From positions 1,736,001 to 1,800,000 of the forward strand of contig NZ_JACHDR010000001.1 of assembly GCF_014201135.1 (NCBI RefSeq): 64,000 nt of DNA, read 5' to 3'. Origin of the DNA: Neomicrococcus aestuarii. Its GTDB lineage: Bacteria; Actinomycetota; Actinomycetes; Actinomycetales; Micrococcaceae. Positions 45,866 to 49,871 of the stretch are shown piece by piece. Below the pieces are notes generated by a model. It was not told the DNA's origin. It ran no database searches and saw only the letters and a list, made by a program, of their open reading frames with translations. The translations under genes were made by a program, and so were the position numbers. The first letter of the stretch is position 1. Each line of letters starts with the position of its first letter.

Positions 45866-45868
45866 TGT

Positions 45869-47023
45869 CTAATCCCGCAACAATTCGCTGGGAGCGACTC
45901 TGGTGGCAGCCAGCGCGGGTAAGAGTGCGCTCAAGAAGCCAAGTACGCCGCCCGCTAAAGGAAGGCCAAGAAGGATTGGCGGTAAGAAGAACAGCGGAAA
46001 GCTGAAAGCACTAATGGTGCCGGCGATGGCGGTGCCCACGAGGAAGCCCGTCAGTCCGCCGAGGAATCCTACGATCATGCCTTCAACAACAATTTGGCTT
46101 GCCACAAAGCGGGTTCCATAGCCCAAGGCTAGATAAAGTCCCATCTCGCGGCGGCGTTCCGTGAGCGATGCAAAAGTCGTTGCGGCCAAGGTCAAGAAAC
46201 CGGTGACGCCTGCGATGATCGCGATCAGTGTGGTGAGGCTATTTCCGCGTTCCAAGATTTCAGCCCTGAGCTCTTGAGCGCTGGGGGCGCTCAGCACGGT
46301 GGCGGCTTCCGGGTTCTCAGGGGAGACGGCGGTGGCAATCCATTTTTTAAGCTTCTCAGTTACTTCGCCTGAAGTGGCGACCGTAAGTTCTCGCTGGTTG
46401 GGGGTCAGTCCCGCCGTTTGCGCCGAGGCTGGTGTGAAAAGCACGCTCGCTGAAATCCAAGCCTCTTCGCTCGAAACTATTCCAAGAACGGAATATTTGA
46501 CCCCATCGATGACCAGGCCGCCTGAGGCCACGTTTGAGTAGCTCAGTTCCATAGCGATTCGCGACCCAACGTAGACAGCCTGGGGGAGGTTGGAGATCAC
46601 AGAATCCGCACCGATGCCTCCTGAGCGCACTGCAACTTTTGCCGTGCGTAGGCCGCTGGGTGTTGCAATTCCCGCCGTCGATTGAACGGATTGATCGCTG
46701 ACTTTGTCATTGCTGACTGTCACAGAAGTGGACATCCGTTCAGGTTTGACCAATGTGCCTGCGTCAGTAATGGCTGACGAGTTTTTCAGCGGTGTTATCA
46801 ACGATTGCTCGGTTCTTTCCCAGGTTTCCCACGGTAGGAGGACAGTGATGCGACTCCTGGTAGCTTCATCTAATCGGTTAGACACCGCTTCCGATGAGCC
46901 AATGGACATGGATGGCAGGACCACCAGCGCAGCTACTCCAGCCGCCGTCACGATCAGCGAGATGAGGTTTCGGCGCCATCGTCTGAGCACGGATTTGAGC
47001 GAAAGCATGAGCGAGTTCTTCAC
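45869..47023 (-). CDS. MacB/FtsX-like ABC transporter permease
   Basis: 384 residues. It has an N-terminal helix (RRNLISLIVTAAGVAALVVL), an extracytoplasmic domain to about 245, and three C-terminal helices (LTTLIAIIAGVTGFLTLAAT, VGFLGGLTGFLVGTAIAG, LGLPLAGGVLGFLSALLPAL) ending in the FtsX signature ALAATRVAPSELLRD. Such permeases work mechanically on periplasmic or cell-surface substrates. It is the last gene of the five-gene operon and overlaps the ATPase gene by 4 bp. Confidence 0.93.
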   Translation of the reverse strand: MKNSLMLSLKSVLRRWRRNLISLIVTAAGVAALVVLPSMSIGSSEAVSNRLDEATRSRITVLLPWETWERTEQSLITPLKNSSAITDAGTLVKPERMSTSVTVSNDKVSDQSVQSTAGIATPSGLRTAKVAVRSGGIGADSVISNLPQAVYVGSRIAMELSYSNVASGGLVIDGVKYSVLGIVSSEEAWISASVLFTPASAQTAGLTPNQRELTVATSGEVTEKLKKWIATAVSPENPEAATVLSAPSAQELRAEILERGNSLTTLIAIIAGVTGFLTLAATTFASLTERRREMGLYLALGYGTRFVASQIVVEGMIVGFLGGLTGFLVGTAIAGTISAFSFPLFFLPPILLGLPLAGGVLGFLSALLPALAATRVAPSELLRD

Positions 47024-47709
47024 AGCGAGTCACCCGTGGCGATTCCGTCCTTGACGCGAATGCGATGGGAGCACCGTGCAGCCAAGTCTTCATCATGTGT
47101 CACGATCACCACCGCCGAATCATTAGATACTGAATTCAGAAGCGCCTGAATCACAATCTCGCCGTTGGTGCTATCAAGATTTCCGGTGGGTTCATCGCAT
47201 AAAAGAAGTTTGGGGCGCCGGACAAGCGCCCTAGCGATTGCGACTCGCTGTTGCTGGCCGCCGGACAACGTTTTTGGGAACGCATTTGCGTGGGTTTCCA
47301 GCCCAAGCGCCATCAGCTGGTCCGTGACTCTTTGCTTTCGGTCCGATTGCCCTGTCTCCGCTGGGTGTAATCCCAGCATGACGTTTTCAGAGACATTGAG
47401 ATGTTGGATCAAATGAAATGCTTGAAAAATGAATCCCAACTCGTGGCGGCGGATTTTGGTTGCCTCGGTCAGAGTTAAGCTTTTGGAGTCGCTGCCAAAC
47501 AGCGTCAGCTCTCCACTATCCGGTTTTTCCAAGAGCCCCAGTAGCGTCATAAGGGTGGTTTTCCCAGAGCCGCTGGGCCCCACGATAGCCGTGGAAGTCC
47601 CGGAGTTGATGCTGAACGAGCCGCTACGTACGCCTTGTTCACCGGGCTCAAAGACCTTCCGAACGTTGTGTGCGCGGACAAGTTGTTGTCTGTTTTCGTC
47701 GTTATTCAA
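47020..47709 (-). CDS. MacB/LolD-type ABC transporter ATP-binding protein
   Basis: 229 residues. Walker A GPSGSGKTTL, signature LSGGQQQRVAIARAL, Walker B LLLCDEPTGNLD, and the H-loop VTHDEDLA. The IRRHELGFIFQAFHL Q-loop is typical of the MacB/LolD/BceA group that pairs with FtsX-like permeases. All catalytic residues are intact, unlike the decayed copy at 59 kb. It overlaps the adaptor gene by 8 bp and the permease gene by 4 bp. Confidence 0.95.
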   Translation of the reverse strand: MNNDENRQQLVRAHNVRKVFEPGEQGVRSGSFSINSGTSTAIVGPSGSGKTTLMTLLGLLEKPDSGELTLFGSDSKSLTLTEATKIRRHELGFIFQAFHLIQHLNVSENVMLGLHPAETGQSDRKQRVTDQLMALGLETHANAFPKTLSGGQQQRVAIARALVRRPKLLLCDEPTGNLDSTNGEIVIQALLNSVSNDSAVVIVTHDEDLAARCSHRIRVKDGIATGDSL

Positions 47710-48856
47710 GGACGCTGAATTCCATTCCCGCCGCTAATTTTTCGCCCTTAATAGCGCAATAGCTATTGGCGCAAAAAAGGACATTGACGGGATGGTTGGT
47801 GGTCGCTTTTTCTCCCGAGTCTGCTTCTGATGCAGATTGCAAGAACGATTGACCATTAGCGTCTTCGTGAATAGCTGTTGCTGGGATTCTGAGCCCATCC
47901 TTGGCTGATGTTTGCACCACCACTCGAGCGTTCTCGGCGAACTCGGCGCTGTCTTTAGGCAGGCCGGTGAGGCTGAACCAGCGCTCTGTGGCCGGTTGCG
48001 CCGCTTCTTGAGCAGTATCCGCTTCTTTGCGGACAGTGGCCTGTTGTTTGACCGTGGGCTTGCCAACAGTAGCGACAACCGGTTGACCACTCACACTTGT
48101 CAACAGGACCTGCATGCCTTGCAGATCCCGGTCTGCGCTTGAAGAAATCACGGTGCTGGTAGCGCTGGATTGCAGTACACACTTGAAATCCGCGGCTTGT
48201 TGGCCCGCAGGTCCGCAGTCCTCGGCAATTTCAAGAGGCATGCTTTTCGCGAAAAAGTATCGTGAGAGGGGTAGGCCGGCTTGCCGCAAAGAGGTTGTTA
48301 GTTCACCGTTTTCATTCACCACGGGAAGGTTGCGCTCTTTGTAGAACTTTGCCAGCGCCAACGCGGTGGAGGCACCAAAAACTCCCTTCTTGTCCCAGTG
48401 CTTGAAATTCTCTCGTACAAGGAACTCTTGGAGTTGGGTGACATCGTCACCTTTCAACCCTGGACCAAGAGGTCTATAGGCGGGAATCTCACCCTGAATA
48501 ATCAAGACGGGCTTCTCGTTGATAGAAAGTATCGAGTCGCCATCCTTAATTGTGGAACCAACTGGTAGCGGGGGACCTGTTACCACCCCTGCGCCCAAAT
48601 AAGCGCCAGTAAGTGTCATGGAGGCATTTCGTAGCGAGTGGACTTTGACGTCGACGGTCTCCTCCACGGCACCTTTTTCTGCAGTGACTGTAATGGCCGG
48701 GGTGGTTGCTGCTGGCTGTTGCGTCGCTTGAAAGTTGTTGATTCCCACTGCAGCAAGTAACGCTAAACTCGCCACTGCAATGATGACGGCAGTGATCAAG
48801 CCGCCGAGCAGTGCTACAAATGAGGTTCGGGTATTCTGTTTATTGCCGCTACCCAT
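47702..48856 (-). CDS. Membrane-anchored adaptor with peptidoglycan-binding domain (HlyD/MacA-like)
   Basis: 384 residues. One N-terminal membrane anchor (FVALLGGLITAVIIAVASLA) precedes an extracytoplasmic region. A PG_binding_1 motif is at about 130-165 (LGPGLKGDDVTQLQEFL). Later beta-rich segments (MQVLLTSVSGQPVVATV, ENARVVVQTSAKDGLRIPATAI) resemble the barrel/lipoyl parts of MacA-type adaptors. The C-terminal FCANSYCAIKG has two Cys that could pair. In Gram-positives such proteins link a MacB-type transporter to the wall. It overlaps the lipoprotein and ATPase genes by 8 bp each. Confidence 0.82.
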   Translation of the reverse strand: MGSGNKQNTRTSFVALLGGLITAVIIAVASLALLAAVGINNFQATQQPAATTPAITVTAEKGAVEETVDVKVHSLRNASMTLTGAYLGAGVVTGPPLPVGSTIKDGDSILSINEKPVLIIQGEIPAYRPLGPGLKGDDVTQLQEFLVRENFKHWDKKGVFGASTALALAKFYKERNLPVVNENGELTTSLRQAGLPLSRYFFAKSMPLEIAEDCGPAGQQAADFKCVLQSSATSTVISSSADRDLQGMQVLLTSVSGQPVVATVGKPTVKQQATVRKEADTAQEAAQPATERWFSLTGLPKDSAEFAENARVVVQTSAKDGLRIPATAIHEDANGQSFLQSASEADSGEKATTNHPVNVLFCANSYCAIKGEKLAAGMEFSVLE

Positions 48857-49757
48857 TGATGATCTTTATGGCTCGATCCTTCGCTTTATTAAGTTCTTCC
48901 TGCATAGCCAGTAGCTTGCCTTCGTTTGCCTGTAGCCAAGCATCCGCCCCTTGTGCGAAGTTTTTGTTGATTACTCCAAGGAGATCAATTTCGTTTTGAC
49001 AAGCGAAGTCTGCGGCGGCGAGTTTCTGCTCTTCCGCATTGGGTTTTTCGCCCAGTTTTCTATACTTTCCCAACATGGTGGCTGCAAGATTTTGAACACC
49101 AAAGCCCGTGACGCTGTATCCGTGATCTTTCATGCACTGCTCAAACTTCGGAACCAAGCGGGTGAGTTCGGCATCTCGGTTGCCAGCAGAACTATAAGCG
49201 GCGACGAGGTACTCGTTGATCATTAAGGTAAGCGAAAGATTACTTTCGATGGAGCCATACACTTGAGCAATGGCACTGGAATTGCAACCCGCTTTTGCCG
49301 TGCTCACAATCTGACCGTTTGAGCCCGCGACTTCAACCTCCGGTCCGTCCGGGGGCCCTGTGAAAGCGGTCCAATATCTCTGTTGATCCTGGACGGACAA
49401 GCTCTTTATCCAGAGTTCAAGTGCGTCAGGTTCATCTTTGAACGTAGTGATGTAGCCCAATTGTTTCGCTTCGGCTTCGGAAGTGAACACATTGGACATT
49501 GGATGCGTGAGGGGGCGTCGGTTGACCTCGGATATATTCAACGGAGGGTTGAGGCCGGTTTCCCTTCTAATGCATTCCTGAATCAAGATTTCATTTGCCA
49601 TAGAAATTTCCATTGGAAATTCAGTGAGTGTCGAGACTGCCCTCAACGATTTCTCGTTAGGTGGCGTAGCCGAGTTTGAGCCGCACCCGCTCAACATGCC
49701 AACAGCCGCAAGAAGCACCAGAGGGGCCAGGAAAACCTTTTTCAAAGTTTGGTTCAT
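48849..49757 (-). CDS. Lipoprotein of unknown function, ABC operon
   Basis: 302 residues. A classic lipoprotein signal: KKVFLAPLVLLAAVGMLSGC with lipobox LSGC, then a short Ser/Asn/Pro linker. The mature part is helical with Cys in LIQECIRRETG, AKAGCNSS, FEQCMKDHGY and ADFACQNE, suggesting two disulphides. It carries no recognised domain. The CMKDHGY segment resembles a pattern often seen in actinobacterial lipoproteins beside peptidoglycan-binding/MacB operons. The ATG is 6 bases after the stop of the 35-residue peptide gene. Confidence 0.85.
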   Translation of the reverse strand: MNQTLKKVFLAPLVLLAAVGMLSGCGSNSATPPNEKSLRAVSTLTEFPMEISMANEILIQECIRRETGLNPPLNISEVNRRPLTHPMSNVFTSEAEAKQLGYITTFKDEPDALELWIKSLSVQDQQRYWTAFTGPPDGPEVEVAGSNGQIVSTAKAGCNSSAIAQVYGSIESNLSLTLMINEYLVAAYSSAGNRDAELTRLVPKFEQCMKDHGYSVTGFGVQNLAATMLGKYRKLGEKPNAEEQKLAAADFACQNEIDLLGVINKNFAQGADAWLQANEGKLLAMQEELNKAKDRAIKIING

Positions 49758-49763
49758 GTGAAT

Positions 49764-49871
49764 TTAGTTTGTGTCTCCTGAAAGGCACGCGACTCCCAAT
49801 GCGGGTGAGGCCCCTGCGATTACTAAGGATGCGGCGAACGCTCCGCCAATTGCTTTTCCCGCGAACTTCAT
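49764..49871 (-). CDS. 35-residue secreted peptide, first gene of the lipoprotein/MacB operon
   Basis: 35 residues, too short for routine gene calling. It starts MKFAGKAIGGAFAASLVIAG, a signal-like Lys start and hydrophobic core, then ASPALGVACLSGDTN. A GGGGGAAC site is 3 bases before the ATG. A signal peptidase cut near ALG/GVA would release a short peptide containing the single Cys, such as CLSGDTN. The gene is followed after 6 bases by the lipoprotein gene, so it is clearly operon-linked. It could be a signalling or antimicrobial peptide, or a leader whose translation sets expression of the operon. No family was recognised. Confidence 0.65.
   Translation of the reverse strand: MKFAGKAIGGAFAASLVIAGASPALGVACLSGDTN

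Follow-up and report, generated by a model that had tools for sequence, protein, structure and literature searches.

The five genes at 45869-49871 of the window (the whole stretch of DNA analyzed, 64,000 nucleotides from Neomicrococcus aestuarii) probably make up the immunity and pump half of a bacteriocin-like system of the I36 type from which the effector gene was lost. The operon has, in order, a long Cys-bearing lipoprotein, a peptidoglycan (PG)-binding adaptor, an ATPase, and a permease, and it belongs to a clade of I36-type systems. An intact secreted I36-type precursor is absent from it; only a signal sequence and nine residues occupy that place. We infer that the I36 protein would be toxic and that the lipoprotein would act in immunity, and likewise the direction of transport.

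Gene order and history of the site

All five genes are encoded on the minus strand, where an earlier note on this DNA had placed them, in the order 35-aa ORF, lipoprotein, adaptor, ATPase, and permease. The evidence for each feature is given in parentheses.

49764..49871, minus strand: 35-aa ORF, a Sec signal sequence followed by about nine residues (ORF, shuffles, homologous loci)
48849..49757, minus strand: lipoprotein, 302 aa, lipobox LSGC (ORF, family alignment)
47702..48856, minus strand: adaptor, 384 aa, with an N-terminal TM segment, a MacA-like part, a PG-binding domain, and a CusB-like part (profiles)
47020..47709, minus strand: ABC ATPase, 229 aa (ABC_tran, NCBIfam)
45869..47023, minus strand: FtsX/MacB-like permease, 384 aa (FtsX, structure-family match)
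45866..45887, no strand assigned: 3' end of the permease gene beside the GntR stop, with the SELLRD-stop codons (comparison with G001)

The lipoprotein, adaptor, ATPase, and permease genes are all intact and full-length. The gene overlaps reported previously exist from the lipoprotein through the permease (8 nt for lipoprotein/adaptor, 8 nt for adaptor/ATPase, and 4 nt for ATPase/permease) but not for the 35-aa ORF, whose stop lies 6 nt ahead of the lipoprotein ATG. The operon is flanked by a GntR/FCD regulator on the glyA/sox side and by a PucR-type regulator on the creatinase side. A sigma-70 scan found no promoter for the operon, an uninformative result, and PADLOC (anti-phage defence) recovered no specific component, matching only the generic ATPase and permease.

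In the sister species G001, the only other species of the genus compared, the operon is absent and about 31 bp separate GntR from PucR, yet this species keeps the last codons of the permease at the identical place. On the minus strand its junction reads AGC GAA TTG CTG CGT GAC TAA, and the window reads AGC GAA TTG TTG CGG GAT TAG. Both encode Ser-Glu-Leu-Leu-Arg-Asp-stop (SELLRD-stop) with synonymous differences only, and the 3-nt spacing to the GntR stop is the same. Because permease codons are kept at the same site, the permease was present in the common ancestor. Judged by these codons, the operon is ancestral at this site and was deleted in G001, where SELLRD-stop is the deletion scar. The same evidence rules out a recent cassette insertion; the earlier note had suggested that the block might be an inserted cassette.

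The reading frame at the head of the operon

The frame of the 35-aa ORF is intact and is preceded by a good ribosome-binding site. It encodes a clear Sec-type signal sequence, and the likely cleavage, after SPA or ALG, would leave about nine residues. When the 327 nt upstream of the lipoprotein were dinucleotide-shuffled 5000 times, an ORF that carries a signal and stops beside the lipoprotein gene arose in 0.14% of cases, and the signal-encoding stretch is therefore not a product of chance. The 35 aa matched neither Pfam nor the NCBIfam lactococcin 972 family, and the profile of I36-type precursors gave them 2.4 bits, a meaningless score. No remnant of an I36 mature domain was detected in the window in any frame, and no close homologue of the operon was present in the searched genomes.

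Judging from the homologous operons, which have a ~110-aa I36-type gene at this position, we infer that the 35-aa ORF is most likely what remains, essentially the signal sequence, of a secreted I36-type protein of about that length that was otherwise lost. The earlier note was right to expect a small secreted product at the head of the operon and to see a real signal sequence there; its reading of the ORF as an active micro-peptide is probably wrong. The ACLSGDTN end, which it had proposed to check for conservation, is confined, among 138 loci (928 kb) compared, to copies of the window locus, and the micro-peptide reading thereby fails the refuting condition that the note itself had set.

A genuine new peptide of about nine residues, a signal or antimicrobial that replaced the I36 protein and is sensed or removed by the lipoprotein and the pump, is an unlikely explanation. 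It would account for an intact frame, ribosome-binding site, and signal sequence that are not expected by chance, and the head of the operon is where a cognate product belongs. However, the end of the ORF is unconserved in any relative, and all recognizable precursors of the clade have about 110 aa. Furthermore, the best Shine-Dalgarno-like stretch before the lipoprotein sits in the final codons of the ORF, at an unusual spacing of ~17 nt from the ATG, and this overlap explains those codons without a peptide function.

Precursors in related operons

The comparison was based on about 60 related loci. The adaptor was searched in 148 genomes, and the lipoprotein in 395 and 396 genomes (partly the same). 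The lipoprotein-adaptor-ATPase-permease module was found in many Micrococcales, always divergent, and the nearest relatives were ~25-30% identical. The order just given is the commonest one; the ATPase and permease are sometimes fused, and a secreted protein of 100-150 aa often precedes the module. A profile scan of genome contigs gave seven loci, and a plasmid search gave matches at 20-32% coverage, mainly from Streptomyces.

Other precursor types stand ahead of similar modules in Streptomyces and in an acidimicrobial assembly. Two Streptomyces loci (L111, 4532-4978; L112, 2014-2463) encode a lipoprotein and a PG-binding adaptor behind a secreted protein of ~149 aa that contains two YNS-type repeats; the L111 protein had no match in Pfam. 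A sister module with a short lipoprotein lies beside a response regulator and a histidine kinase, with no precursor (L043, L048, L051), and may be a resistance pump. Elsewhere in the window's genome, L044 (4609-11605; G000 C1 ~300.6-307.6 kb) has two tandem adaptor-ATPase-permease sets, each behind a short Cys-bearing secreted or lipoprotein gene; both sets are conserved in G001 (L045), and no precursor is visible.

In the adaptor tree, the window is on a long branch within a clade of eight (support 97/98), together with L034, L036, L039, L041, L088, L089, and L090. All operons of this clade have the long lipoprotein. An intact I36-type precursor is encoded at or near the head of five of the seven other operons (L036, L039, L088, L089, and L090). 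The precursor of L034 is decayed, with the signal sequence in one frame and a C-terminal remnant in another. In L041 (5735-9368), a single adaptor and pump follow four diverged lipoproteins in tandem; no precursor is visible, and the locus looks like an orphan immunity array. Since a precursor or a remnant of one is found in all operons of the clade but L041, the ancestral operon had, by bracketing, a ~110-aa I36-type precursor gene. Decay of the precursor ahead of intact pump genes is seen twice more, in two relatives (G033, G217): in L034, as described above, and in L129 (5170-5550), where an I36 precursor pseudogene with a frameshift and two stops precedes intact lipoprotein, adaptor, and permease genes.

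The precursors of the window's clade form one homologous family of ~110 aa. Most of them fall below the Pfam Inhibitor_I36 (PF03995) cut-off when taken singly, and an iterated profile links them to proteins that reach it; the precursors of L052 (E 1.6e-10), L107, L101, and L091 are at or above this cut-off. With the precursor profile, 20 of the 20 matches with E <= 1e-10 in 395 family genomes adjoin a lipoprotein and/or an adaptor, a figure that covers this I36 branch and not all PF03995 because the profile was built from such loci. A crystallin-like fold of the precursor is predicted from the I36 profile only; the AlphaFold model of one Rothia precursor, with a pLDDT of 51, was unusable. The precursors of L037, L042, and L113 resemble lactococcin-972 members by eye, and they were rejected as such, having no Pfam or NCBIfam match.

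The window's genome has a second, apparently intact operon of this kind (L052, 3510-7729; G000 C1 ~29.0-33.2 kb), which encodes the I36 protein, a lipoprotein, an adaptor, and a fused ATPase-permease in that order.

The lipoprotein as a candidate immunity factor

The window lipoprotein has the lipobox cysteine and, by comparison with its family, four further near-invariant cysteines. It matched no Pfam family, and its AlphaFold model (pLDDT 66) had no match in the PDB. Copies of the lipoprotein are found in tandem or as orphans (e.g., L041, L090, L091), often adjoining precursors, and the stretches seen of one Rothia genome hold several precursor/lipoprotein pairs and one pump. The paralogous lipoproteins of this Rothia genome are 32-40% alike in the N-part but 58-88% alike over the final ~100 residues, as would be expected if recognition varies and the contact to the pump is shared. 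These three features, the tandem and orphan copies, the several pairs per pump, and the variable N-part with a conserved end, favor an immunity role for the lipoprotein, a candidate immunity or capture factor. One member of the family (L093, 5057-5878) lacks the signal sequence, the lipobox, and the conserved cysteines, and has no pump nearby.

The Pfam family is named after metalloprotease inhibitors of Streptomyces. The I36-type protein could then be a protease inhibitor or a wall-stabilizing protein that the lipoprotein and the MacAB-like pump place on the wall or clear from it, with no toxin involved and with the inhibitor lost from the window. Placement at the surface would suit a Sec-secreted protein encoded near a wall-binding adaptor, but we consider this improbable: it leaves unexplained the tandem and orphan lipoproteins, their variable N-parts, and the loss of precursors while the rest is retained.

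The adaptor and the ABC pair

The wall-binding adaptor and the MacB-type ABC pair of the earlier note were both confirmed. Taken alone, the adaptor scored 18 bits against the PG-binding domain PF01471 (cut-off 23); with a profile of the adaptor family the domain is clearly found, flanked by a MacA match (3e-7) in the N-part and a CusB match (3e-4) in the C-part. The PG-binding domain occupies roughly the position of the hairpin in MacA. The ATPase matched ABC_tran (E 2.5e-34), and its best NCBIfam model was L_ocin_972_ABC (TIGR03608), with 194.8 bits, below the cut-off of 254.85. The permease matched FtsX (E 6e-16) and is MacB-like (PDB 5nik, 7e-8; 5lil). Neither the operon nor its neighbors encode a TolC-type outer-membrane partner, and the family resides in Gram-positive actinobacteria.

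The least probable reading makes the lipoprotein, adaptor, ATPase, and permease a MacAB-like pump for general resistance to peptides of foreign origin that act on the envelope. The 35-codon ORF would then be no more than a translation-coupling leader for the lipoprotein gene. In favor of this reading, the sister modules beside two-component genes (L048, L051) do without a precursor, and the lipoprotein gene lacks a well-spaced Shine-Dalgarno sequence and starts 6 nt after the stop of the ORF, but the window's clade is associated with precursors and not with regulators, and a leader has no need of a signal sequence.

Proposed function

In our preferred reading, the immunity half of an I36-type system, intact versions encode a secreted protein of ~110 aa, in which a Sec signal precedes a mature domain of the Inhibitor_I36 type (beta/gamma-crystallin-like). 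The lipoprotein, anchored at the outer side of the membrane, would capture the secreted protein near the membrane and hand it to the pump. The MacAB-like pump, with the PG-binding domain between the MacA- and CusB-like halves of its adaptor, would then drive the protein out through the wall, and one pump may be common to several effector/lipoprotein pairs. In the window, the effector gene would have been cut to the signal sequence and about nine residues, so that the cell could keep resistance without making the effector.

The earlier note had proposed that the gene set exports its product or responds to it. The set probably does deal with the product, but the Sec signal of this product makes it unlikely that export depends on the ABC pair. 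By analogy with lactococcin 972-type loci, the ABC genes are more likely protective than required for export.

More tentatively, and with somewhat more doubt than confidence, I36-type proteins with a lipoprotein and a wall-anchored MacAB-like pump may be an undescribed, widespread class of actinobacterial antibacterial effectors with paired lipoprotein immunity and one pump for several effector/lipoprotein pairs, of which the window would be a natural resistant non-producer. Our literature search found no published description of such a lipoprotein and wall-anchored pump alongside I36-type proteins, and we know of no member of PF03995 from these operons shown to be antibacterial. If the proposal is true, many actinobacterial proteins annotated as peptidase inhibitor family I36 would be effectors of competition systems with protective genes adjacent, and many orphan lipoproteins and "peptidoglycan-binding/MacB" operons would become open to direct tests. 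Two stages of loss would then be visible in the window and its sister species, the effector cut to a stub and the whole operon deleted.

Comparison with known systems

In the related operons, L052 included, the first gene encodes a member of the I36 peptidase inhibitors (PF03995; type member, Streptomyces SMPI) or of a divergent branch of this family, whereas the window copy is without the mature domain. The yeast-active SKLP has a fold similar to that of the I36 family.

Immunity pumps of the BceAB and LanFEG types are ABC pumps believed to remove peptides that act at the cell surface; some work together with a lipoprotein (LanI) or with a two-component system. The window operon resembles them in having an ABC pump with a lipoprotein, but it has a MacB-like permease with an adaptor, and the likeness is a general one. 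With the MacAB-type tripartite exporters it shares the MacB-like permease (PDB 5nik, 5lil) and the MacA- and CusB-like adaptor halves. It differs from them in its separate ATPase and permease, the PG-binding domain between the adaptor halves, the partner lipoprotein, and the lack of an outer-membrane partner.

In the lactococcin 972-type loci (lactococcin 972; streptococcin scbABC), the gene for a small unmodified Sec-secreted protein stands ahead of predicted genes for immunity and an ABC transporter, and the best NCBIfam model of the window ATPase is from this group. The window differs in its precursor family, its MacB-like permease, its lipoprotein, and its wall-binding adaptor, and its ATPase is below the cut-off. 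In these loci the small protein exits by Sec, and immunity and transport are the predicted functions of its partner genes; what the B and C proteins do is stated to be unverified (PMC11796350). The retention of partner genes without the effector, as proposed for the window, has a precedent in pneumococcal genomes, where 157 of 571 keep only scbBC of the lactococcin-972-like scbABC, without the bacteriocin (PMC11796350).
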